Shown here: in pieces, positions 2,422-17,941 of the stretch
Layout of the letters: every line of letters begins with the position of its first letter
Position numbering within the stretch: the stretch's first letter is position 1
NCBI RefSeq assembly: GCF_001931675.1
Contig: NZ_CP014839.1
Location: forward strand, 310,001-374,000
DNA length: 64,000 nucleotides
Source of the DNA: Pandoraea thiooxydans
GTDB taxonomy: Bacteria; Pseudomonadota; Gammaproteobacteria; Burkholderiales; Burkholderiaceae
Reading direction: 5' to 3'
Notes under the pieces: generated by a model
Told to the model about the DNA's origin: nothing
Databases searched by the model: none
Seen by the model: only the letters and a program-made list of their open reading frames with translations
Position numbers and translations under genes: made by a program

Positions 2422-5400
2422 ATGAAATTCGCCGCCCGCCTGTCGAAACTGCTGCGCGTCATGCTCGCGCCCGACAAGAGCGCGCGCCGCGCGGTCGCCG
2501 CCATGCCCGCGCCGCTCATCGTGGCGCTCGAGCCGCGCATCGTCTACGACGCGTCGGCAGCGTCGATCGGCGCGACCGCGGTCGCGCCTCAGCATCACGC
2601 GAGCGGCGACGCGCAGCCCGTGGGCGTCATGCGCGATGTGCCGGTGGCGGCGAATCCGGCCACGGACGCTTCCGCGTCGGCGCGTACGGTGCATGGCTTC
2701 ACCGATACGGCGGCCCAGGCGGCCAACAAGCAGGTCGTTTTCATCAATGGGAACGTCGCCGATTTGCAAACACTCGTCGCCGGTTTGCCGGCGGGCACGC
2801 AGTATGTGGTGCTCGACTCCACCAAGGACGGGCTTTTGCAAATCGAGCAGTATCTGCAGACGCACTCGGGCGTCAGCGCGATCCACCTCGTGTCGCACGG
2901 TTCCGACGGCAACGTGCAGGTTGGCAGCACGTGGCTCAACCAGGGCGATATCGCGGCCTATAGCGCGGAACTCACGCAGATCGGCGCAGCGATGCGGCCG
3001 GGCGGCGACTTCTTGATTTACGGCTGCGATGTCGCCCAAAACGCCGACGGCAAGGCGCTCGTGCAGCAGATTGCTTCGATCTCGGGATTGAACGTGGGGG
3101 CATCGACCGATGCCACCGGGGCGGCCGCGCTTGGCGGCGACTGGGCGCTCGAGTACGACGCCGGCGCCGTGCATACGTCGGTGATTTTTTCGCAGGCTGC
3201 CGAGCAGCGATATGCCGGACTATTGGCCGTCACCGATGAAACATACGATGGACAGATCGGCTATGACACGGCCGGCGGTGCGGTGGGCGTCACATCGTTC
3301 GACCTGGACGGCATCCACTACACATTGGACCAGGCTGCGGAATTCGCCGTCGACAGCACGACCGTCAACCAGTTCGGCCCTCCGCCGCTCACTACAGGGC
3401 CGACCGATGGGGTGTTGTTCGGCAACGTGCAAGGCACTTCGCTGACATCGATGACCATGTCGCTGCAAAACGGCGACAAGATGGCCGTGCAGAGCTTCGA
3501 TATCGACATCAATGCGCCTTCTGTGGTCGCGGTCGAAGCGCTGAATTCCTCCGGAAACGTGATAGGCACGCTTACGCTTGATACGTCGACGAATGGCGGC
3601 AGCTCGGTGTTTCACGTCAATTTGTCGGGCAACGCTGCTTTCTCAGGCATCGCGAGCCTAAGATTCCGTGAGACGGATTCGGCGTTTCTCACGCCGACGC
3701 TCAACAACTTCGCTTACGTCGACCTGTCCTCGCCACCGGTGGTGACGGCTACAGGCGGCGGCACGCCGTTCGTCGAAGCCGATAACACCACATCGACCCC
3801 CGTCGTGATCGATAGCGGGATCACCCTGGCCGATGGCGATGCGACCACCGCGAAAGCCGGCACAGTCAGTATCACGGGCAACTTCGCGAGCGGGCAGGAC
3901 GTACTGGGATTCAACAACACGAGCACTGCGCTGTATGGCGACATCGGCGGCTCCTACAACGCGGCCACCGGCGTGATGACGCTGACGTCGGCGAGCGGTA
4001 CCGCCACGATCGCGCAATGGCAGGACGCGTTTCGCGCGGTTACCTACACCGATACGGCTGTGACACCGACCACTGCCACGCGTACGGTCAGCTTCGAACT
4101 GACGAGCGACGCCTACTACTCATCCAGCAATGTGGCCACGAAAACCGTGACCGTCACGGCAACCGATCAAAGCCCGATCGTCCGGACGACGGGCAGCACG
4201 ACGAGCTACAGCGGTGGGGCGTCCGCCATCACCATCGACGGCGGCATCACGGTCAGCGATCTCGACAATACGACGCAATTGTCGGGTACGGTGTCGGTTT
4301 CGGGCGGCTTCCATAGCGGCGATACGCTGGCGTTCAACAATACGAGCTCGGCCACGTTCGGCAACATTGTCGCTTCGTACAATTCGGGCACGGGTGTGTT
4401 GACGCTGACGTCTTCCGGCGCGACGGCCACCGATGCGCAGTGGGCCGACGCGCTGAAATCCGTAACATTCTCGAGCACGAGCACGACGTACGGCAGTCGC
4501 ACGATTTCGTTCGCGACAAGCGATGGCACGAAGACGAGCACCGCGGCGACCGATACGATCAATGTCGTGAACCCTGTGCAAGTGACGACTGACTCGGGGT
4601 CGGCGGCGTTCGTGGCCGGCGACAACACGACGTCGACGCCAGTGGCGATCGATTCCGGATTGACAGTGACGGACACCACTGCCACGACGCTGGGTTCCGC
4701 GACGGTGGCGATCACGGGTAACTTCCACAGCAGTGAAGATGTGCTGGCGTTCACCAACGACGGCGCGACGATGGGCAACATTGCGGCTTCGTACGACTCG
4801 GGCACGGGGGTGATGACACTGACCTCGGGCAGCGCCACGGCCACGCTGGCGCAATGGCAGAGCGCGCTGCGATCGGTGACTTACACCGACACGGCGATCA
4901 CGCCGAGCAACGCGACGCGTACCGTGAGCTTTGCCGTTGTCGACAGTTTGAGCAATACGAGCACCGCTGCCACGCGTACCGTCACGGTCACGGACACGGA
5001 TCAAACGCCGATCGTGACGACGACGGGCGGGACGACCTATTATGTCGGCGACGCCGCGCCGGTGACGATCGACGGTGGAGTCGCTGTCAGCGATCGGGAC
5101 AACACGACGCAATCGTCGGCCACCGTGGCGGTGACAGGCAACTTCCACAGCGGCGACACGTTGAGCTTTATCAACGACGGCTCGACAATGGGGAACATCC
5201 AGGCTTCCTACAGTGCGGGATCGGGCGTTTTGTTGCTCACGTCGATAGGGGCGACGGCCACCGATGCGCAATGGGGCAGTGCGTTGAGAGCCGTCACGTT
5301 CTCGAGTACGAGTACGACATACGGCAACCGCACGATTTGGTACCAGATCAACGACGGCACGAAAAACAGCCCGCAAGCCGCCGATACGGTCTATATGACG

Positions 5401-8400
5401 GCGCCCCCGACGATCACGACCGATTCTGGCTCGGCCGCGTTTGTTTCTGGCGATAACGCGACGTCGACGCCAGTGAAAATCGATTCTGGCCTGACGGTAA
5501 CCGACGGCAGCGCGGCGACGCTTGCCTCCACGACGGTGGCCATCACAGGCAACTTTCACGGCAGTGAAGATGTGCTGGCGTTCACCAACGACGGCGCGAC
5601 GATGGGCAACATTGCGGCTTCGTACAATTCGGTAACGGGGGTGATGACACTGACCTCGGCCAGCGCCACGGCCACGCTGGCGCAATGGCAGAGCGCGCTG
5701 CGATCGGTGACGTACACCGACACGGCGATCACGCCGAACAACGCGACGCGCACCATGAGCTTCACGGTGGTGGATGGGGCGGGCAACACGAGCGCCACGT
5801 CCACACGCACGGTGACGATCACGGACACGGATCAAACGCCGATCGTGACGACGACCGGGGGCACGACGAACTACATCGGCGGGACGTCGGCGGTGACCAT
5901 CGACGGTGGGATCACGGTCAGCGACCGGGACAATACGACGCAATCGTCGGGTACGGTGTCGGTGACAAGCGGCTTCCACAGCGGCGATACGCTGAGTTTC
6001 ATCAATACGAACGCGACCACGTTCGGCAATATCGTCGCTTCGTACAATTCGGGCACGGGTGTGCTGACGCTGACGTCTTCCGGTGCGACGGCCAGCGATG
6101 CGCAATGGGCGAGCGCGCTGTCGGCGGTGACGTTCTCGGCGGGGTCGAGCGCGACGCCGGGCAACCGGACGATTTCGTTCGCGACGAGCGACGGCACGAA
6201 GACGAGCGTGGCGGCGAGCGATACGGTTGCGGTGCTTGGTCCGCCGACGATCGTGACCGATGCGGGTTCGGCGACGTTCGTGGCGGGCGACAACGCGGCG
6301 TCGACACCGGTGGCGATCGATTCGGGGTTGACCTTGACGGATGGCGCCGCCTCGACGCTGTCCTCGGCGACCGTGGCGATCACGGGCAACTTCCACTCGA
6401 GCGAGGACGTACTCGGGTTTGCGAACACGAGTTCGGCGACTTACGGCAACATCGCCGCGTCGTACAACGCGGCCACGGGTGTATTGACGCTTTCCTCCGC
6501 GGGTAATGCGGCCACGCTGACGCAATGGCAGGCGGCGCTCGACGCGGTGACATATACCGACACGGCGGTCACGCCGAACAACGCAACACGTACCGTGAGC
6601 TTCACGGCGGTGGATGCGGCTGCTGTCACCAGCAATACGGCGACGCGCACGGTGACGGTGACCGACACCGACCAAACACCGATCGTGACGGCCACGGGGG
6701 GCACGACGAACTACGTTGGGGGCACGTCGGCCGTGACGATCGACGGCGGGATCACGGTGAGCGATCTCGACAACACGACGCAATCGTCGGGTACGGTGTC
6801 GGTGACAAGCGGCTTCCACAGCGGCGATACGCTGAGTTTCATCAATACGAACGCGACCACGTTCGGCAACATCGTCGCTTCGTACAATTCGGGCACGGGT
6901 GTGCTGACGCTGACGTCTTCCGGTGCGACGGCCACCGATGCGCAATGGGCGAACGCGCTGTCGGCGGTGACGTTCTCGGCGGGGGCGAGCGCGACGCCGG
7001 GCAACCGCACGATTTCGTTTGCGACGAGCGACGGCACCAAATCCAGTACGGCCGCAACCGACACGGTGAGCGTGCTCGGCCCGCCGACGATCACGACTGA
7101 CCCCGGTTCGGCTTCATTCGTGGCGGGTGACAATACGGCCTCGACGCCGGTTGCCATTGACTCGGGGCTGACCTTGACGGACGGCAGCTCGCCGACGCTG
7201 GCTTCAGCCACCGTGGCGATCACGGGCAACTTCCATAGCGGCGAAGACGTACTGGCGTTCACCAATACAAGCTCGACGACATATGGCAACGTCGCGGCGT
7301 CGTACAACGCGGCGACAGGCGTGTTGACGCTGACGTCGTCGGGCGCATCGGCCAGCCTTGCGCAATGGCAGGCGGCGCTCGATGCGGTGACTTACACCGA
7401 CACCGCGGTCACGCCGAACAATGCAACGCGCACGATCAGCTTTGCGGCGGTCGATACGGGCGCCGTGACTAGCAACACGGCCACGCGCACCGTCACGATC
7501 ACCGACACCGATCAAACACCGATCGTGACGACCACGGGGCATACGACGAACTACGTCGGCGGTACGTCGGCGGTGACGATCGACGGCGGGATCACGGTGA
7601 GCGATCTCGACAACACGACGCAATCGTCGGGCACGGTGTCGGTGACGGGAGGTTTTCATAGCGGCGATACGCTGGCGTTCATCAACACGAACGCGACCAC
7701 GTTCGGCAACATCGTCGGTTCATATAACGCGGCCACGGGCGTGCTGACGCTGACGTCTTCCGGTGCGACGGCCACCGATGCGCAGTGGGCGAACGCGCTG
7801 TCGGCGGTGACGTTCTCGGCGGGATCGAGCGCGACGCCTGGCAACCGGACGATTTCGTTCGCGACGAGCGACGGTACGAAGACGAGCATGGCGGCGAGCG
7901 ATACGGTGACGGTGCTCGACCGGCCACATGTCGGGATCGATCCAGGTGCTGCCTCATTCGTCGCCGGCGACAATGCGGCGTCCACGCCGATCGTCGTTTC
8001 GCCGGGCCTGAGCCTGACCGACGCCAGCAGCACGACGGCGAGCCAGGCCAGCGTATCGATCACGGGCGGCTTTCACACGGGCCAGGACGTGCTCGCGTTC
8101 GACAACGACGGCGCGACGATGGGCAACATCGCCGCCAGCTATGACGCAAGCACCGGCGTTCTGAGGCTGAGTTCGGCTGGCGGGACGGCCACGCTCGCCC
8201 AATGGCAGGCGGCGCTGGCCTCGGTGACTTACACCGATACGGCCGTCACGCCCGCTAACACGACGCGCTCGATCAGCTTCACGGTGACGGACGGTAACGG
8301 CACGGCAAGCGACATGCAAACACGCAGCGTGACGGTGACCGATACCGATCAGACGCCGCTCCTGAGCGTGGGCGGCGACGCGGCGTTTACGGCCAGAGGG

Positions 8401-9522
8401 AACGGCTCGACGCCGGCCGTGGTGGCCCCGCAAGTCACCATCAGCGACCTGGACAACACCACGCTGGCCTCGGCGCAAGTATCGATCGGCGCCGGGTTCG
8501 ATGCGGCGAACGATACCCTCGGGTTCGCGAGCGGCGCGGCGACCGGCAACATCACGGGGAGCTACAACGCTGCTACCGGTGTGCTGACGTTGACCTCCGT
8601 CGGCGGTACGGCGACGATCGCGCAATGGACGGCCGCACTGAAATCGGTCACGTACGGCAATCAGGCGCTCAACGCCGGCAGTAGCCGCACGGTAACGTTC
8701 ACGGTCAACGATGGCGTGAAGACAAGCGCGGTCGCTTCCAACACGGTGGCGATCACCAATGCGCCGGCTTTCCCGCCGATCCTGCCCGCCGAGCCTCCAA
8801 CCATCATCGAGATGCCCGCACCGACGCATTCTTCGTCGTTCACGGGCAACGACCATACCGCGCCGGCCGACGTGCTGGATGAGTTCGCTCAGCCGCTGCC
8901 GATCGGCGCGGTGCCTGTCGTGCCAACCATGACGTTTACCGATCCGAGCGCCCCGGCACATGCCTATTCGCTGGATCGCGCATCCGTGCCGCGCGCCGAC
9001 ACGACGGCACTCAACGGTGCGATCGCCGTGCTGCCTATCGACGCGCCGCTGGCGCTGCCGAACGTGTCGTTCGAGGTGACGCCGAACAATCCGTTCTCGA
9101 TCAGCGTTGCGACCTTGCTGCCGCTGTCCGAGGCAATGCACGGCGGCTCCGGCGTCACCGTCGAACTCGCCGACGGCCGCCCGCTGCCGGGCTGGATCCG
9201 CTACGACGTGGTGAATGGCGTCTTGCAAGGCAAACTGCCGCCGGGTGTCGGGGATGTCCATATCGTCGTGCTCACGCGCGATGCGGCCGGCCACCAGACG
9301 CGCCGCGAGCTGGTACTGGCTCCGCACGACGGGCATGGCGGTGAACATGGCGGCTCGCACGGCGTCGCCAAGCCGGGGACGCCTGGCCATGCCGGGCTCG
9401 CCCAGCCGCCCGTGGCGCGAGCGGCACGCCCTGCCGGCAAGCCTTCGCTCGACCAACAATTCGCCGAAGCTCGAGCGGCGCTGCACGTATCGAAACCGGG
9501 CGCCGCTGCGCGTCGCGTATGA
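2422..9522 (+). CDS. Giant repeat surface protein with LEPR-type N-terminus and DUF4347 domain
   Basis: This 2366-residue protein begins with a basic segment and an LEPRIVYDASA motif (from residue 36), the hallmark of large secreted or adhesin-like proteins annotated as LEPR proteins. A DUF4347 domain spans about residues 103-270 and contains LVSHGSDG (His159) and IYGCDVA (Cys202), a caspase/gingipain-like His/Cys arrangement. After a linker come twelve alternating beta-rich repeats of about 140 residues (about 440-2115), rich in Thr, Ser, Asp and Gly. A C-terminal Ig-like segment (about 2205-2300) and a His/Gly/Pro-rich tail follow. It has no classical Sec signal peptide and I saw no RTX nonapeptides. 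Its stop codon overlaps the start of the next gene (ATGA), tying it to the outer-membrane, adaptor and M50 genes downstream. I infer a cell-surface or secreted adhesin exported by that apparatus; adhesion itself is not shown. Confidence 0.85.
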   Translation: MKFAARLSKLLRVMLAPDKSARRAVAAMPAPLIVALEPRIVYDASAASIGATAVAPQHHASGDAQPVGVMRDVPVAANPATDASASARTVHGFTDTAAQAANKQVVFINGNVADLQTLVAGLPAGTQYVVLDSTKDGLLQIEQYLQTHSGVSAIHLVSHGSDGNVQVGSTWLNQGDIAAYSAELTQIGAAMRPGGDFLIYGCDVAQNADGKALVQQIASISGLNVGASTDATGAAALGGDWALEYDAGAVHTSVIFSQAAEQRYAGLLAVTDETYDGQIGYDTAGGAVGVTSFDLDGIHYTLDQAAEFAVDSTTVNQFGPPPLTTGPTDGVLFGNVQGTSLTSMTMSLQNGDKMAVQSFDIDINAPSVVAVEALNSSGNVIGTLTLDTSTNGGSSVFHVNLSGNAAFSGIASLRFRETDSAFLTPTLNNFAYVDLSSPPVVTATGGGTPFVEADNTTSTPVVIDSGITLADGDATTAKAGTVSITGNFASGQDVLGFNNTSTALYGDIGGSYNAATGVMTLTSASGTATIAQWQDAFRAVTYTDTAVTPTTATRTVSFELTSDAYYSSSNVATKTVTVTATDQSPIVRTTGSTTSYSGGASAITIDGGITVSDLDNTTQLSGTVSVSGGFHSGDTLAFNNTSSATFGNIVASYNSGTGVLTLTSSGATATDAQWADALKSVTFSSTSTTYGSRTISFATSDGTKTSTAATDTINVVNPVQVTTDSGSAAFVAGDNTTSTPVAIDSGLTVTDTTATTLGSATVAITGNFHSSEDVLAFTNDGATMGNIAASYDSGTGVMTLTSGSATATLAQWQSALRSVTYTDTAITPSNATRTVSFAVVDSLSNTSTAATRTVTVTDTDQTPIVTTTGGTTYYVGDAAPVTIDGGVAVSDRDNTTQSSATVAVTGNFHSGDTLSFINDGSTMGNIQASYSAGSGVLLLTSIGATATDAQWGSALRAVTFSSTSTTYGNRTIWYQINDGTKNSPQAADTVYMTAPPTITTDSGSAAFVSGDNATSTPVKIDSGLTVTDGSAATLASTTVAITGNFHGSEDVLAFTNDGATMGNIAASYNSVTGVMTLTSASATATLAQWQSALRSVTYTDTAITPNNATRTMSFTVVDGAGNTSATSTRTVTITDTDQTPIVTTTGGTTNYIGGTSAVTIDGGITVSDRDNTTQSSGTVSVTSGFHSGDTLSFINTNATTFGNIVASYNSGTGVLTLTSSGATASDAQWASALSAVTFSAGSSATPGNRTISFATSDGTKTSVAASDTVAVLGPPTIVTDAGSATFVAGDNAASTPVAIDSGLTLTDGAASTLSSATVAITGNFHSSEDVLGFANTSSATYGNIAASYNAATGVLTLSSAGNAATLTQWQAALDAVTYTDTAVTPNNATRTVSFTAVDAAAVTSNTATRTVTVTDTDQTPIVTATGGTTNYVGGTSAVTIDGGITVSDLDNTTQSSGTVSVTSGFHSGDTLSFINTNATTFGNIVASYNSGTGVLTLTSSGATATDAQWANALSAVTFSAGASATPGNRTISFATSDGTKSSTAATDTVSVLGPPTITTDPGSASFVAGDNTASTPVAIDSGLTLTDGSSPTLASATVAITGNFHSGEDVLAFTNTSSTTYGNVAASYNAATGVLTLTSSGASASLAQWQAALDAVTYTDTAVTPNNATRTISFAAVDTGAVTSNTATRTVTITDTDQTPIVTTTGHTTNYVGGTSAVTIDGGITVSDLDNTTQSSGTVSVTGGFHSGDTLAFINTNATTFGNIVGSYNAATGVLTLTSSGATATDAQWANALSAVTFSAGSSATPGNRTISFATSDGTKTSMAASDTVTVLDRPHVGIDPGAASFVAGDNAASTPIVVSPGLSLTDASSTTASQASVSITGGFHTGQDVLAFDNDGATMGNIAASYDASTGVLRLSSAGGTATLAQWQAALASVTYTDTAVTPANTTRSISFTVTDGNGTASDMQTRSVTVTDTDQTPLLSVGGDAAFTARGNGSTPAVVAPQVTISDLDNTTLASAQVSIGAGFDAANDTLGFASGAATGNITGSYNAATGVLTLTSVGGTATIAQWTAALKSVTYGNQALNAGSSRTVTFTVNDGVKTSAVASNTVAITNAPAFPPILPAEPPTIIEMPAPTHSSSFTGNDHTAPADVLDEFAQPLPIGAVPVVPTMTFTDPSAPAHAYSLDRASVPRADTTALNGAIAVLPIDAPLALPNVSFEVTPNNPFSISVATLLPLSEAMHGGSGVTVELADGRPLPGWIRYDVVNGVLQGKLPPGVGDVHIVVLTRDAAGHQTRRELVLAPHDGHGGEHGGSHGVAKPGTPGHAGLAQPPVARAARPAGKPSLDQQFAEARAALHVSKPGAAARRV
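3738..8763 (+). repeat. Tandem alternating A/B repeats inside the giant protein gene
   Basis: Six A units (core FVAGDNxxSTPVxIDSG) alternate with six B units (core GGTSAVTIDGGITVSD). Each unit encodes about 140 residues, giving a super-repeat of about 0.83-0.84 kb. The Ile-Asp-Gly-Gly anchor of the B unit recurs at 4231, 5065, 5896, 6736 and 7576; the last two steps are exactly 840 bp. The three central copies are nearly identical at DNA level, whereas the first and last copies have diverged. Confidence 0.85.
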
Positions 9523-11138
9523 ATCCCCGTCATCCCTTGAGACCAATGAGACTACAACCGTCAGTTGCCGAAACGATGCCAGCGCCCACCTTGGCACCTG
9601 CCGCAAACACCGCGCACGAGCCGCGTTCGAAGCGCGCACTGCGTCCGTCGCTGGCCGTCATCGCAGTGGCGGCGTTATGGCTTTCCGGCTGCGCGATCAG
9701 ACCGACGCCGTTTACCGACGCCGAGCGCGCACAGAGCGCGCATGCCGATCGCATCGCCATGTTCGCAAACCAGCCGCCGCTGACCGGGCCCGTCACACTC
9801 GAGGAAGCCATGGCGCGGGCGATCCGCTTCAACCTCGACCATCGCCTGAAGATGATGGAAGAGGCTCTGGCGCAGAAGCAGCTCGACGTGGCGAACTTCG
9901 ACATGCTGCCGCGTCTGACCGCCGCGGCCGGCTACACGTACCGAGACCATCCGCTCGCATCGGAGTCGATTTCGCTGCGCACGCATCAGGTGTCGTTGGA
10001 GCCGTCGTACTCGACCGATCAAAACGACCGCACGGCCGATCTCGCGTTCTCGTGGAACGTGCTCGACTTCGGCGTCAGCTACTTCGAGGCCAAAGAGCAG
10101 GCCGATCGCGTGCTCGTCGTCGAGCAGCGTCGGCGCAAGGTCGTGCAGTTGTTGATGCAGCAAGTGCGCGAGGCTTACTGGCAGGCGGTCGGTGCGCAGC
10201 GCCTGGAGAAGCAGGTCGGTCCGCTGCTTGCACAGGCCAGGCAAGCGCTGGACGATTCACGCGAGTCTCAGCAGGAAGGGCTGCGCTCGCCGCTCGATAC
10301 GCTGGCCTATCAGCATGCGCTGCTCGATATCATGCGCCAGCTCGAACTCGTGCGCGACCAGCTCGACGAGGCCAGGCCACGGCTTGCATCGCTCATGAAT
10401 GTCGCGCCCGGCACGGACATCACGCTTGCGCCGCCCAAGGGCTTTGCGGTACCGCAATTCGCCATGCCGATGGACCGGATGGAGGAGACCGCGCTGGAGC
10501 GCCGGCCGGAACTGGTCGAAGCGAGCTACAACGAGCGCATCAGCGTCAACGAAACGCACAAGGCCATTGCCAAGCTGCTTCCGGGCATCGAGGTGCAGTT
10601 GGGCACGCACTACGACAGCAACAGCTTCCTGGCCTATCATGCGTGGCGCGCGGCCGGCATCAATGTGAGCTGGAACCTGTTGAATCTGCTCAACGCGAAG
10701 AACATTCGCGGCATGGCGCATGCGCAACGCGACGTCGCACATGCGCAGCAGCTCGCGCTGTCGATGGCTGTGCTCACGCAAGTGCACGTCGCGCGCGCCG
10801 AGTTGAGCGCCAAGCAGCGTCAGTTCGATTTGTTCAGGCAGATCAACGATGTCGATGCACAGATCCTTCAGCATATGCATAACGCCACCGTCGTGAACGC
10901 GCAAGGCAAGCTCGAGGAGATCCGTGCGGCAGCTTCCGCGATGATGTCGGAGCTGCGTCTGTATCAAAGCTATGGCGAGCTCGAAGGCGCCTACGGTCAG
11001 CTGTTGGCGACGCTCGGGCTCGATCCGTTGCCCGCTGGCGCCGGCAAGCGCGATTTGAAATCGATCGAGCGGTCGATCGACAAAGAGCAAACGCGTTGGG
11101 CCCAGTTGGGCCGCGCCGACGGAGTCAAAGCGCAATGA
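9519..11138 (+). CDS. TolC/NodT-type outer-membrane channel lipoprotein
   Basis: A 539-residue outer-membrane factor. A hydrophobic segment ends in a lipobox (ALWLSGC, Cys58), predicting a lipid-anchored OprM/NodT-like channel rather than a plain TolC. Two repeated helical regions follow, as in the family (for example GPVTLEEAMARAIRFNLDH, then the QVREAYWQAVGAQR and DSRESQQEGLRSPLD segments). The first ATG overlaps the upstream stop codon (ATGA), so translation is probably coupled to the giant protein gene. A second in-frame ATG 27 bp downstream (MRLQPS) would give a more typical signal peptide. It probably forms the outer-membrane exit duct for the system built by the next three genes. Confidence 0.88.
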   Translation: MNPRHPLRPMRLQPSVAETMPAPTLAPAANTAHEPRSKRALRPSLAVIAVAALWLSGCAIRPTPFTDAERAQSAHADRIAMFANQPPLTGPVTLEEAMARAIRFNLDHRLKMMEEALAQKQLDVANFDMLPRLTAAAGYTYRDHPLASESISLRTHQVSLEPSYSTDQNDRTADLAFSWNVLDFGVSYFEAKEQADRVLVVEQRRRKVVQLLMQQVREAYWQAVGAQRLEKQVGPLLAQARQALDDSRESQQEGLRSPLDTLAYQHALLDIMRQLELVRDQLDEARPRLASLMNVAPGTDITLAPPKGFAVPQFAMPMDRMEETALERRPELVEASYNERISVNETHKAIAKLLPGIEVQLGTHYDSNSFLAYHAWRAAGINVSWNLLNLLNAKNIRGMAHAQRDVAHAQQLALSMAVLTQVHVARAELSAKQRQFDLFRQINDVDAQILQHMHNATVVNAQGKLEEIRAAASAMMSELRLYQSYGELEGAYGQLLATLGLDPLPAGAGKRDLKSIERSIDKEQTRWAQLGRADGVKAQ

Positions 11139-11986
11139 ATTCATGGTGCAGGGCAGGGCTGCGCGGCGCGGCCCTGGTGGTAGTGGCTTACAGTTGTTTC
11201 TCCGGGGGTGCCCGAGCGGCAGGATCGCAAGCCGCGGCGCCGCGCGCGTTGGCCGCCGCACCAGCGGTGCCTAATGCGCCGGCCGCGCTTGGCGTTTCTT
11301 CGTCCGTGCATGCCGAAGACGATGGCCGGATCCGGGTCCAGCTCGTCGCGCGCGACCAGGTCGATATTTCGAGCGAAATCAGCGCGAAGATCGCTTCGAT
11401 GCCATTTCGCGATGGCGATGCATTCCGCACTGGGCAGACGCTCGTGTCGCTCGATTGCTCGCTCTACCTGGCGCAATTGCACAAGGCCCAGGCGGAAGCG
11501 GAGGCCGCCGCGCAGCTCGAGCGCGTCAACGAGCGTCTCTCGCAATTGCATTCGATCGGCGAGGTCGAGGTGCAGCAGGCTCAGGCCAAAGCGAAAGCGA
11601 GTGCGGCGGAAGTGGCTTACATGCAGGCCACGGTGAGAAAGTGCAGTATTTCCGCGCCGTTCGACGGGCGCGTCGTCAAGCGCAGCGCCTCCGCGCAGCA
11701 ATTTACCGAGCCCGGCAAATCGCTTCTGACGATCATCGACACGAGTCATCTCGAACTGAAGATGATCGTGCCGTCGAAGTGGCTCGTCTGGCTCAAACCC
11801 GGCCACGCGCTCACGGTGAGTGTCGATGAAGTCGGCAAAAGCTATTCGGCCAAGGTCGTGCGGATCGGCGCGCGCGTCGATCCGGTGACGCAGACCGTCG
11901 ACGTGACGGCCGCGCTGTCTGCCCACACGCCCGAGCTGTTGCCGGGCATGAGCGGCTGGGCGCGTTTTGCCGATCCCGGCCGTTAA
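11135..11986 (+). CDS. HlyD/RND-type periplasmic adaptor (short)
   Basis: A 283-residue periplasmic adaptor starting at the ATG that overlaps the upstream stop codon (ATGA). A signal-peptide-like N-terminus (GAALVVVAYSCFSGGARA) precedes the first lipoyl half (about residues 60-105). An alpha-helical hairpin rich in Ala, Gln and Glu follows (about 110-170), then the second lipoyl half with SAPFDGRVVKRSAS and a beta-barrel domain (VDPVTQTVDVTA). It is shorter than typical AcrA-like adaptors (about 380-400 residues) and lacks a clear membrane-proximal domain. In tripartite systems this family bridges an inner-membrane protein to an outer-membrane factor; here the likely partners are the lipoprotein channel and the M50 fusion protein. 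Confidence 0.85.
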   Translation: MNSWCRAGLRGAALVVVAYSCFSGGARAAGSQAAAPRALAAAPAVPNAPAALGVSSSVHAEDDGRIRVQLVARDQVDISSEISAKIASMPFRDGDAFRTGQTLVSLDCSLYLAQLHKAQAEAEAAAQLERVNERLSQLHSIGEVEVQQAQAKAKASAAEVAYMQATVRKCSISAPFDGRVVKRSASAQQFTEPGKSLLTIIDTSHLELKMIVPSKWLVWLKPGHALTVSVDEVGKSYSAKVVRIGARVDPVTQTVDVTAALSAHTPELLPGMSGWARFADPGR

Positions 11987-12001
11987 AACGGCGGCCGCAT
12001 C

Positions 12002-13465
12002 ATGAATACCCCGCTGCGGATCGAGGCGAGCGCGCTTGCGGTGCTCTGGCAATTGTCCGCGCGCGCGCGCGAAGCGCCGAGCGAGCAGACGCTCGGCTTT
12101 GTCGTGGTCAATGAAACGCTCTCGCTCGTGCCGTACCGGCAGGCGGCATGGTGGCGTGCGCCGGCGCCCTTGCCGGGCGCGGTTGCCGCCGTCTCGGGCC
12201 TGCCGCAGAGCGACCCCGGCGCGCCGTACGTGCAGTGGCTCGGCGAAGTGTGCCGCGCGCTGGAACGTCGCGCGCAGGCAGGCTCGAACGAACCTTCCGC
12301 TTCCCAGGCCGATCAGCAGCGGGGCGCAGGCGAGGCGGGCCAGAATGCAGCGCAATCGAGCGCACCGGCGCAGAGTGCCGACGCCGCATCACCCGTTTGG
12401 CCGTATGCATTCACTGCCGACAGCCTGCCCGCCGCGCTGGCGGCCGAATGGGATGCCTGGTGGCCGACGCATGCCCTATGGGTGCCGCTGGTCGATCGGC
12501 TGGGCCGCTCGTTCGGCGGCGTGGTTTTCGCGCGTGAGCAGCCGTGGACGCCGGTGGACGAGGCGCTGCTCGCCGAACTCGCACGGGTCTGGTCGCACGC
12601 GCTCGCGGCGTTTTCTCCTCGGGCTTCCTGGAGCGAGCGCGCCAGGCTTGCGCTGCGCGCAGGCAAGTATCGGCGTCGCGTGCTGATAGCGGCCGCCTGT
12701 GCCCTGGTCGTGCCGGTGCCGCTGACGGTGCTTGCGCCGGCCGAGGTTACGCCGAAGGACCCGTTCGTCGTGCGCGCTCCGCTCGATGGTGTGATCGATC
12801 GCGTGTTCGCGCAGCCGAACCAGCGTGTCGCAGCGGGTACCCCCCTGTTTGCGCTCGACTCCACGGCGCTTGCCTCGCGCTATGCCGTGGCGAACAAGAA
12901 CTACGCAACGGCGCAGGAGGAGTATCGGCAGACCGCCCAGCTTGCAGTCACCGACGATAAGGATCGGCTCGATATGGCGCTGCGCAAGGGCAAGCTCGAT
13001 CAAAGCGCGGTCGAACTCGACTATACGGCGCACGAACTCGCACGGGTACGCGTGAGCGCACCGCGTGCCGGCGTCGCTGTATTCTCCGATCCGAACGATT
13101 GGAACGGCAAAGCGGTGTCGATCGGCGAGAAGGTGATGCTGCTTGCCGATCCGGCTCACGTCGAGCTCACCGCCTATGTGCCGGCCGCAGACAACGTCGA
13201 CGTCGTGCCCGGTGCGAGCGTCACGCTTTATCCAAAGAGCTCGCCGTTCGCCTCCTACGAGGCGCGCATCGATACGGTGGCCTACCGCGCCGAGCCGACG
13301 CCCGATGGCGTGGTGGCCTATCGCGTAAAGGCCACGTTTACCGGCAGGGTCAAGCCCCCGCTCGGCGTGATGGGTACCGCCCGCATTCATGGTCATTGGG
13401 TGCCGCTTGTCTACTATCTGTTGCGCCGCCCGCTGGCGAGCGCGCGGCAGTGGCTCGGCTGGTAG
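12002..13465 (+). CDS. Membrane-anchored HlyD-like adaptor with long cytosolic N-terminal domain
   Basis: This 487-residue protein has an unusual layout for an adaptor. About 220 residues precede the only clear membrane segment (about 227-245, VLIAAACALVVPVPLTVL). That part resembles a GAF-like sensory fold (LGFVVVNETLSLVPYRQ at the start, WVPLVDRLGRSFGGVVF later), though the assignment is tentative. After the membrane come a lipoyl/HlyD domain (VRAPLDGVIDRVFAQPNQRV), a short helical hairpin (about 290-330), the second lipoyl half (RVSAPRAGVAVFSDP) and a beta-barrel. It lies 15 bp downstream of the short adaptor gene and 39 bp upstream of the M50 gene. I infer a second adaptor whose cytosolic domain may recognise substrate or a signal. 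Confidence 0.8.
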   Translation: MNTPLRIEASALAVLWQLSARAREAPSEQTLGFVVVNETLSLVPYRQAAWWRAPAPLPGAVAAVSGLPQSDPGAPYVQWLGEVCRALERRAQAGSNEPSASQADQQRGAGEAGQNAAQSSAPAQSADAASPVWPYAFTADSLPAALAAEWDAWWPTHALWVPLVDRLGRSFGGVVFAREQPWTPVDEALLAELARVWSHALAAFSPRASWSERARLALRAGKYRRRVLIAAACALVVPVPLTVLAPAEVTPKDPFVVRAPLDGVIDRVFAQPNQRVAAGTPLFALDSTALASRYAVANKNYATAQEEYRQTAQLAVTDDKDRLDMALRKGKLDQSAVELDYTAHELARVRVSAPRAGVAVFSDPNDWNGKAVSIGEKVMLLADPAHVELTAYVPAADNVDVVPGASVTLYPKSSPFASYEARIDTVAYRAEPTPDGVVAYRVKATFTGRVKPPLGVMGTARIHGHWVPLVYYLLRRPLASARQWLGW

Positions 13466-13504
13466 GCCGTGCCGCGGCTTCCTTCATACTGACGCGGCGC
13501 ATCG

Positions 13505-15616
13505 ATGTCACACCTTCCTTCTCTTCGCCAGGAACTGAGCCTGACCCCGGGCGCGGCGACGCCCGATGGCGCGCCGACTTGGATGCTCCACGATCCGGCG
13601 GGCAATCGCTTCTTCCAGATCGGCTGGCCCGCGTTCGAAATGCTCTCGCGCTGGTCGCTCGACGACCCCGAGGCGATCGTGGCTTCGGTCAATGCGCAGA
13701 CGACGCTGCGACTGACGAGGGATGACTTCGAAGCGCTCTTGCGGATGCTGCACTATCAGCATTTGCTCGTTGCGGCGAGCCCAGCCGATACCGGGCTGCT
13801 CGAGAATGCGGCGGCCGCGCACAAGCTCTCGCGTGCAATGTGGTTGCTCAAGCACTACTTGATGATTCGTGTCCCGCTTTGGCGTCCGATGCCGTTCTTG
13901 CGGCGCTTCGCGCGGTATGCGGAAATCGCTTATCGGCCGGCGTTCTGGATGGTGATCGCGCTGATGGCGCTGACTGGCCTCGTGCTCGTGTCGCAGCGCT
14001 GGGATGAGTTTATCCACACGTTCCATGGATACGCCGACCTGCGCGGGCTGATTGCGATCGGCGCGGCCATCGCCTGCGCCAAGATATTGCATGAATTCGG
14101 TCACGCATTCACGGCGCATCGCTACGGCTGCCGGGTGCCGACGATGGGCGTCGCGCTGCTCGTGATGGTGCCGGTGCTCTATACCGATACGACCGAAGCC
14201 TGGAAGGTCCCGGGGCGCGCGCAGCGCCTGCGCATCGGCGCGGCCGGCATGCTGACGGAGCTTGCGCTGGCTGCCGTGGCGACGCTTGCCTGGAGCGTGC
14301 TGCCCGATGGCCCGCTGCGCGCCGGCGCGTTTCTGCTCGCAACGACCACATGGATCGGCACGCTGACGATCAACGCGAGCCCGTTCATGCGCTTCGACGG
14401 CTACTTCCTGCTGTCGGACTGGCTCGATATGCCGAACCTGCACGACCGGGCCTTCGCATTTGGCCGGTGGTGGCTCGCAGAACGGCTATTCGGCTTCGGC
14501 GATCCGCAGCCCGAGCCGTGCGCGGTCAAACGCCGACGCTTTCTGATCGCCTTTTCTTTCGCCACGTGGCTGTACCGGCTGGTCGTCTTTTTTTCGATCG
14601 CTTTGATTGTGTATCACACGTTCTTCAAGGCGCTGGGTTTGATGCTGTTTTTCGTCGAGTTCGGCTGGTTCATCGCGCGGCCCGTGGTCCGCGAAATCGC
14701 TGCGTGCTGGCATCGCCGCGCGCAGTTGCACTGGCGTCGCGAAACGCGGCGCACCGCGATCATCGGCGCGTTGCTGATAGGCTTTTTCGTGCTGCCTTGG
14801 CACGGCGGCGTCAGCGCCCCCGCGGTGCTTGGGCCGTTGCGTGCGCAAGGACTCTACACGCCGGAGGCCGGCTATGTGACGGCGCAGGCGCCGATCGCGC
14901 ATGACGGGCAGCGTGTGCGCGCGGGGGACGTCCTCGCGGTCCTGGCCTCGCCCGATCTCACGCATCGGCTGCAAGCGGCGCAGGCCGATGAGACCCTGTT
15001 GGGCTGGGAGGTCGCGCAACAGCCGTTCGATGAGCGGTTGCTCGAACAAGGGGCGGCGTTGCGTCGCCGATGGGACGCAGCGCGCCAGGCCGTAACGGGG
15101 CTCACCGCGCAAGTTGCCCAATTGACGCTGCGCGCTCCGTTTGACGGCATCGTGCAGACCGATGACGCGCTTGCGCCGGGGACATGGCTGCCGCGCGGCG
15201 AACACGTATTCGACGTTGTCGGGCCGATTGGCGTGAAGGGGGAAGCGTTCGTCGGCGAGGGCGACGCGGCGCGCGTCGCGGCGGGCGATCGGGTGGATTT
15301 CGTCGCAGCGGTACCCGAACTCGGTGTGGTGCACTGCCGGGTGAAGGCTGTCGATCGCGTGAACGCGGCGACGCTCGATGTCCTGTCGCTCGCGAGTGTC
15401 TATGGCGGGCCGCTACCCGTGCGGCAAGAACCGGGTACGCATCGACTCGTGCCGCTCACGGCGATCTACCGCGTACGAATCGGAGAATGTCCCGCGCACG
15501 AAGCCTGGCCCCGTGAAATCGACGGGACCGCTACGATTGGCGGTGCACGACAAAGCTTTGCGTGGCGTGGGTTGAAGTACCTCGCGTCCGTTTTTCGGCG
15601 CGAGGGTGGCGCTTAG
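13505..15616 (+). CDS. PqqD-like / M50 site-2-protease-like / HlyD-like fusion membrane protein
   Basis: A 703-residue polytopic protein. Residues 1-95 look like a PqqD-type winged-helix domain (FQIGWPAFEMLSRW, then LRMLHYQHLL). The membrane core (about 140-430) has several hydrophobic segments. It carries the metalloprotease motif HEFGH (His196, Glu197, His200) and a distal NASPFMRFDGYF motif (Asp298), matching the zinc ligands of M50/S2P enzymes. After a last membrane segment (about 420-438) the C-terminus is HlyD-like: a lipoyl half, a hairpin, then LRAPFDGIVQTDD and a beta-barrel. All catalytic residues are present, so proteolysis is plausible. Related M50-HlyD proteins occur with peptide maturation and export loci (family knowledge). 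In this operon it takes the place where a type I system would have an ABC transporter. Confidence 0.85.
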   Translation: MSHLPSLRQELSLTPGAATPDGAPTWMLHDPAGNRFFQIGWPAFEMLSRWSLDDPEAIVASVNAQTTLRLTRDDFEALLRMLHYQHLLVAASPADTGLLENAAAAHKLSRAMWLLKHYLMIRVPLWRPMPFLRRFARYAEIAYRPAFWMVIALMALTGLVLVSQRWDEFIHTFHGYADLRGLIAIGAAIACAKILHEFGHAFTAHRYGCRVPTMGVALLVMVPVLYTDTTEAWKVPGRAQRLRIGAAGMLTELALAAVATLAWSVLPDGPLRAGAFLLATTTWIGTLTINASPFMRFDGYFLLSDWLDMPNLHDRAFAFGRWWLAERLFGFGDPQPEPCAVKRRRFLIAFSFATWLYRLVVFFSIALIVYHTFFKALGLMLFFVEFGWFIARPVVREIAACWHRRAQLHWRRETRRTAIIGALLIGFFVLPWHGGVSAPAVLGPLRAQGLYTPEAGYVTAQAPIAHDGQRVRAGDVLAVLASPDLTHRLQAAQADETLLGWEVAQQPFDERLLEQGAALRRRWDAARQAVTGLTAQVAQLTLRAPFDGIVQTDDALAPGTWLPRGEHVFDVVGPIGVKGEAFVGEGDAARVAAGDRVDFVAAVPELGVVHCRVKAVDRVNAATLDVLSLASVYGGPLPVRQEPGTHRLVPLTAIYRVRIGECPAHEAWPREIDGTATIGGARQSFAWRGLKYLASVFRREGGA

Positions 15617-15955: not shown

Positions 15956-16246
15956 ATGAACCTTCGTCCCTTGCATGACCGCGTCATCGTCAAGCGCCTG
16001 GACAATGAAACGAAAACCGCTTCCGGTATCGTTATTCCTGATGCAGCCGCCGAAAAGCCCGATCAGGGCGAGATTCTGGCCGTCGGTCCGGGCAAGAAAG
16101 ATGACAAGGGCAATTTGATTGCGCTGGACGTTAAGGTCGGCGATCGTGTGTTGTTCGGCAAGTATGCTGGCCAAAGCGTCAAGATCGACGGCCAGGAATT
16201 GCTGGTGATGCGCGAAGAAGACCTGATGGCCGTGGTGAACAAGTAA
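15956..16246 (+). CDS. groES: Co-chaperonin GroES
   Basis: A 96-residue protein of normal family length, starting [15 protein letters not shown]. The mobile loop segment is [15 protein letters not shown] and the end is [13 protein letters not shown]. GroES forms the seven-subunit lid on the GroEL cage and drives ATP-dependent folding of cytosolic proteins. A clear ribosome-binding site (AGAAGAGGAG) precedes the ATG. The gene is first in a two-gene operon behind the CIRCE element, so HrcA repression and heat induction are expected. Confidence 0.98.
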
Positions 16247-16258
16247 GCGTCTACTTGA

Positions 16259-17941
<1,683 letters not shown>

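Follow-up and report, generated by a model that had tools for sequence, protein, structure and literature searches.

Five consecutive genes on the forward strand of a 64,000-nucleotide stretch of the Pandoraea thiooxydans genome (the window, G000:C1:310001-374000, in a genome of one contig and 4.46 Mb) occupy positions 2422-15616 and encode a giant repeat protein, a TolC-like outer-membrane factor (OEP), a HlyD-type periplasmic adaptor, a second adaptor in which a predicted GAF fold is joined to a HlyD part (GAF-HlyD), and an M50 protease fused to a HlyD-type adaptor (M50-HlyD). These genes likely constitute a single dedicated machine that would recognize, cut and export the giant without an ATP-binding cassette (ABC) transporter. 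The set is linked, the giants have conserved motifs at both termini, the protease retains its catalytic residues, and no type I ABC transporter was found in the genome. The first-pass annotation of this DNA had proposed an ABC-free system in which the M50 protein replaces the ABC exporter, and had assumed that giants of this kind normally use type I secretion. The ABC-free set has proved to be real and conserved beyond this genome, but type I secretion as the normal route is not supported. The five same-strand genes of the types it named, with ATGA overlaps joining the first three (giant, TolC-like, HlyD; the HlyD start codon is the ATG at 11135), were borne out by the open reading frames (ORFs) and Pfam matches.

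The gene set is widespread and its members travel together. An M50 match at 1e-20 is present in 42 of the 200 genomes of the order examined, 21 of which carry the form referred to here as type A (E < 1e-115). At 1e-60, an M50-HlyD relative is found in 84 of 299 genomes of the phylum (roughly a quarter; 73 close, 11 distant), and in 65/239 when good-quality genomes are counted. The closest named M50 proteins are those of Trinickia, Burkholderia and Paraburkholderia; the plant-associated Paraburkholderia kururiensis (locus L088) carries the same set, its M50 protein being 89% identical. The 80 named loci, a biased sample consisting of the best-scoring of at least 595, have hosts among the beta-, gamma- and alphaproteobacteria, the Desulfo- groups and Nitrospira, with genera that include Burkholderia, Pandoraea, Chromobacterium, Duganella, Variovorax, Pectobacterium, Brenneria, Phytobacter, Pseudomonas, Azospirillum, Skermanella, Marinobacterium, Desulforhopalus and Nitrospira. 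Where enough upstream DNA is available, the M50 gene is adjoined by a GAF-HlyD gene in 92/93 loci, and the same stretch holds a HlyD gene in 71/79, an OEP gene in 69/79 and both in 68/79. The position of the giant gene varies: it lies upstream of OEP, between the HlyD and GAF-HlyD genes, or downstream of M50. This conservation across loci rules out the possibility that the set is a product of chance or an artefact.

By domain and motifs, the M50 protein classes as a site-2 protease, and proteolysis is predicted. PF02163 scores over its cut-off in the window protein and is present in 23/23 members at E 0.01, and the HExxH and NxxP...DG catalytic residues are kept in 64/64. Structural models predict a protein of three parts: a putative PqqD-like RRE at the N-terminus, possibly a winged-helix fold of the peptide-binding kind, then the site-2 protease, then an adaptor resembling MacA. 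For the second adaptor, they predict that the N-terminus adopts a GAF fold. The structure alignments used 63/69 eligible M50 and 61/62 eligible GAF-HlyD relatives. The idea that this N-terminus conceals an NTPase was considered and set aside, as the predicted fold is GAF; no NTPase is among the matches listed, which does not by itself rule one out. The window M50 protein matches the daptide M50 model NF041824 with 162.4 bits, below its curated cut-off of 300; this model is matched by 23/23 type A members, and the YydH/LiaK epipeptide model NF058609 by 13/23.

The giants of type A loci range from about 1,100 to over 3,000 residues and carry paired terminal motifs, a pairing that is new here. 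The N-terminal motif, LExRxx(F/Y)D(G/A), lies near the start, with four positions invariant in an alignment of 14 giants. Among 59 automatically picked ORFs the motif is present in 24; by eye, 31 of the 35 others are antisense, out of frame or unrelated, and the remaining four are giants that lack it (L059, L116, L124, L150). Its regular expression matched 8/10 held-out giants, the other two reading LEARMMFDGA and LERRIAFDAA. The C-terminal tag, (G/A)(K/R)xx(L/F)xxQ(L/F/M/I), starts 12-48 residues before the end (GKPSLDQQF, 28 residues before the end, in the window giant). Written as [SAGTNP][LF]..Q[LFMVI] and applied to the last 75 residues, it was found in 58/68 giants, as compared with 3.7% for interior windows and 4.6% for shuffled tails; this count leaves out 34 of 102 type A loci, 26 without a giant beside the genes in the stretch and eight without its 3' end. 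The unchanged expression matched 10/13 giants in a later sample, the one independent test, against 3.7%. The conserved C-terminal motif is a candidate secretion signal. A scoring matrix made from 14 tails placed 18/33 and 9/18 other loci over the 99% null, and was set aside as weaker than the regular expression, owing to its bias towards betaproteobacteria.

In a more distant M50-HlyD family, type B (L070-L087, L188-L207), the accompanying HlyD protein is longer (about 620 residues), and some of the giants that go with this family show N-termini of the LEPR..(S)AD type and C-termini of other kinds. A C-terminal motif specific to type B (WxxDFV...PNxxLxV) matched 2/4 by regular expression and more by eye; no claim is made for it because type B loci are heterogeneous.

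What marks a giant as a partner of the M50 system appears to be its terminal motifs rather than DUF4347, the domain present in the window giant. Giant L137, from Pectobacterium, lacks DUF4347 but carries both motifs, and 3/21 type A genomes have no DUF4347 match. Conversely, LExR is missing from five DUF4347 proteins that are complete at both ends and lie away from any M50 gene, and their tag scores are at background; four of them come from G056 and G094, genomes without a single M50 match, and the fifth from G015. DUF4347 was therefore rejected as the export signal. Three such giants that were scanned (L168, L170, L177) have DUF4214 ends (3/3) and RTX repeats (2/3), and this class, DUF4347 without LEPR, looks like type I substrates. 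The window giant has no RTX repeats (HemolysinCabind without a match at E 0.01) and matched no NCBIfam model at E 0.01. A sixth DUF4347 protein away from the locus, L187, comes from a type B genome and bears LEPRWLLSAD, the form typical of type B; other such genes are cut by contig or stretch ends, and three of them in type A genomes (L176, L180, L186) bear the type A motif. Within DUF4347, a Cys is invariant in 14/14 and a His-Gly motif has its His in 12/14, a pattern that presumably recalls clan CD cysteine peptidases. A sequence search of the PDB gave weak matches, including a chain labelled DUF4347 (9qpe_G, E 0.005). The domain is at most a candidate caspase-like peptidase; the His is lost in 2/14. 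A DUF4347 protein of Burkholderia thailandensis, BTH_II1339, is among those most raised in stationary phase, according to PMC12322963.

None of the five genes encodes an ABC exporter ATPase by Pfam scan, in agreement with the first-pass annotation, which had named an ABC transporter elsewhere in this genome, needed for export of the giant, as the finding that would count against it. The genome has six ABC_membrane matches: MsbA (813 bits), a CphA-associated (cyanophycin) ABC (1442 bits), an MsbA-like protein, CydC, CydD and a broken exporter. None passes the LssB, HlyB or PrtD cut-off, the broken one having been scanned as a 411-residue piece; this gene (L015, near G000:C1 position 2995146) contains an in-frame TAG and is likely decayed. 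The annotation had also called for a search for the neighbourhood with and without an ABC gene, and 101/102 type A neighbourhoods turned out to lack a type I-like one. The exception, L057, is considered below. An MsbA-like exporter lies at a distance of 4.4 kb in L119, and the remaining neighbourhood matches look importer- or MacB-like from their starts; these matches and the edge fragments in L067 and L224 are left unclassified. Across the order, DUF4347 tracks the M50 gene and not LssB-type ABCs, contrary to the idea of a normal type I route. It occurs in 32/200 genomes, of which 27 have M50, as compared with 15/168 of the others (P 6.5e-18, shared ancestry uncorrected); LssB-type ABCs, over cut-off in 40/200, are found in 6/32 DUF4347 genomes and 34/168 others (P 1, likewise uncorrected), which is no association. 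The five DUF4347 genomes without M50 include G038, with a weak match, and G159, where a small contig holds OEP, HlyD and GAF-HlyD genes belonging to the set. That the five complete DUF4347 proteins away from an M50 gene lack LEPR, the three scanned ending in DUF4214 and two of these carrying RTX repeats, is also at odds with that idea.

The proposed machine would operate as follows. On the cytosolic side, the RRE-like domain would bind the giant at either of its two terminal motifs. An inner-membrane base made up of the M50 core and GAF-HlyD would be connected to the TolC-like channel by the three adaptors. The giant would exit with its C-terminal tag first and its LExR segment last, and M50 would cut at or near a terminus, thereby releasing or anchoring it. 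The GAF domain is a plausible sensor, and not the engine. More tentatively, such systems may form a separate class of secretion system, in which a protease with its own peptide reader and a fused periplasmic adaptor stands in the place of the ABC motor, without a dedicated ATPase, and in which giants picked by paired LExRxxFDG and GKxxLxxQL motifs would reach the surface through three adaptors and a TolC-like channel.

Several observations weigh against this proposal. No energy source is visible in the set, and no site-2 protease is known to be a protein-conducting channel. An OEP gene is missing from the stretch at 10/79 loci, the tag is missing in 10/68 and 3/13 giants, its regular expression was picked after the tails had been read, and the named loci are the biased sample described above. 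In an alternative reading, an atypical signal around LExR would direct the giant into Sec, or into some other general pathway, for passage across the inner membrane; the M50-HlyD complex would then only process it and, together with the TolC-like channel, carry it over the outer membrane. SecA would provide the missing energy. LExR does lie close to the N-terminus, preceded by basic residues and a short hydrophobic stretch, and site-2 proteases usually cut membrane-embedded segments. However, within the first 80 residues the window giant reaches a best 19-residue Kyte-Doolittle mean of 1.37, in a stretch that covers the E and R of LEPR, and the same maximum in 26 relatives is 0.42 to 1.53; the charged core of this stretch argues against a classical signal. 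This is a weak test that separates poorly, as the expected signal bearers score 1.65 (OEP) and only 1.26 (HlyD), which is a further point against the proposed machine. A Sec route would leave the conserved C-terminal tag and the RRE-like domain unexplained. It is considered unlikely, though the most credible of the alternatives.

An ABC transporter encoded elsewhere might also power export, leaving M50 as a maturation protease. A type I ABC passes at least one of the three cut-offs in 13/21 type A genomes, and L057 has an LssB-like ABC (G180:C16:286944; 622.6 bits, cut-off 693.1) 12 kb from its M50 gene, which has neither GAF-HlyD nor OEP as a neighbour; both facts tell against an ABC-free machine, and the latter leaves room for ABC help in trans at that locus. 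HlyB is over cut-off in 6, and PrtD in 10, of the 42 M50 genomes, the only ones scored for these two. Yet none of the three cut-offs is passed in 22/42 M50 genomes and 8/21 type A genomes. Four of these eight (G012, G060, G180, G181) have LssB-like proteins of 620-640 bits, and the firm type I-ABC-free type A genomes, as judged by these scores, are 4/21 (G000, G062, G093, G120). With no such ABC in this genome and no association of DUF4347 with LssB-type ABCs, type I export in trans seems quite improbable. Somewhat less so, but still doubtful, is the notion that the M50 complex serves to retain or release a giant whose export follows another route. Lap systems offer a precedent for protease-controlled adhesin release, the GAF domain could sense a signal and the conserved N-terminal segment could be the plug, but an own channel and three adaptors exceed the needs of a release switch, and the genome is without a type I ABC for export. 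No LapG/LapD-type periplasmic cysteine protease or c-di-GMP receptor was found by Pfam in the five genes to which that search was confined. Least probable is that the complex exports a small peptide, excised from the giant or some other precursor as in epipeptide or daptide pathways, with the giant only as carrier. The nearest M50 families are proteases of ribosomally synthesized and post-translationally modified peptides (RiPPs), and an RRE-like domain is present, but what is conserved as the partner is a giant that bears a motif at either end, and the five genes showed no short precursor and no RiPP-modifying enzyme (small ORFs not systematically searched).

The proposed ABC-free machine resembles type I secretion (HlyB-HlyD-TolC; LapB-LapC-LapE with LapA) in its HlyD-type adaptor and TolC-like channel, and in a giant repeat substrate that has a C-terminal motif and no evident Sec signal. 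It differs in that no ABC ATPase is in the operon or was found in the genome, in its three adaptors, two of them membrane-bound, in a different C-terminal motif, and in a window giant without an RTX match. Tripartite pumps (MacAB-TolC, EmrAB-TolC, MexAB-OprM) differ in having ABC, RND or MFS partners, which are absent from the five genes searched; these three are the energized partners named in a review from 2021 that covers tripartite and type I systems (PMC8277102). RseP and SpoIVFB share the site-2 protease fold with HExxH and NxxP...DG, whereas the protein described here has extra RRE-like and adaptor domains and its own gene set. EpeP, for which YydH is presumably another name, and the daptide proteases belong to the same M50 lineage; here, however, the M50 part shares one chain with an RRE-like domain and a HlyD adaptor, a TolC-like channel accompanies it, and a giant protein takes the place of the short peptide as partner. 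According to a review, EpeP is believed to perform both cleavage and export, and its deletion did not fully abolish the product (PMC10885120). A LEPR near the N-terminus of a large repeat protein is shared with so-called LEPR-XLL proteins, but in the present case it goes together with a C-terminal tag and with genes of an export-like set. No description of this gene set was found among the titles and abstract openings of a literature search that had preprints and most subscription papers outside its reach.

If the giant is exported, a protein of more than 2000 residues would cross two membranes without a dedicated ATPase, forcing a search for the energy source. If the machine works as proposed, it would constitute a new secretion route, with an intramembrane protease where the textbook system has an ATP-driven pump. 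The two terminal motifs provide a handle for finding more substrates and for testing recognition directly.

Table 1. Features of the five-gene set, in window coordinates
Feature	Position	Strand	Basis
Giant repeat protein, proposed substrate, 2366 aa	2422..9522	+	ORF; DUF4347 186.3 bits
N-terminal motif LEPRIVYDA of the giant	2527..2553	+	sequence; L36, E37, R39, D43 invariant in 14/14 giants
DUF4347 domain of the giant, dispensable for set membership	2734..3225	+	invariant Cys; absent from L137 giant
C-terminal tag GKPSLDQQF of the giant	9436..9462	+	sequence; regular expression 58/68, held-out 10/13
TolC-like outer-membrane factor, lipoprotein	9519..11138	+	OEP 97.3 bits; LSGC lipobox by eye
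HlyD/RND-type periplasmic adaptor	11135..11986	+	HlyD_3 73.2 bits; RND_mfp 126.6 bits, cut-off 94.9
Membrane-anchored adaptor: predicted GAF fold (about 12011-12625) and HlyD part	12002..13465	+	
RRE-like / M50 site-2 protease / HlyD fusion	13505..15616	+	model pLDDT 88.3
Predicted RRE (PqqD-like) peptide-binding domain, M50 fusion residues 3-90	13511..13774	+	
Site-2 protease core, M50 fusion residues 129-370	13889..14614	+	
Zinc-site motif HEFGH	14090..14104	+	H196, E197, H200 invariant in 23/23 and 64/64
Second site-2 protease motif NASPFMRFDG	14372..14401	+	N290, P293, D298 invariant in 23/23 and 64/64
MacA/MexA-like adaptor part, M50 fusion residues 424-687	14774..15565	+	

Some phylum genomes, such as G205, G213, G251 and G301, have at least three M50-HlyD copies (three candidates were scored per genome), and one locus, L128, labelled as a Mycobacterium metagenome-assembled genome, carries the set but is probably a mis-binned contig. 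In the window, a CRP/FNR-type regulator gene lies upstream of the giant gene (768-1514) and is overlapped by an ORF of 129 residues (382-771) without a Pfam match. Downstream, groES/groEL-like genes, named by eye, follow on the same strand about 340 bp after the M50 gene (15956-17941).

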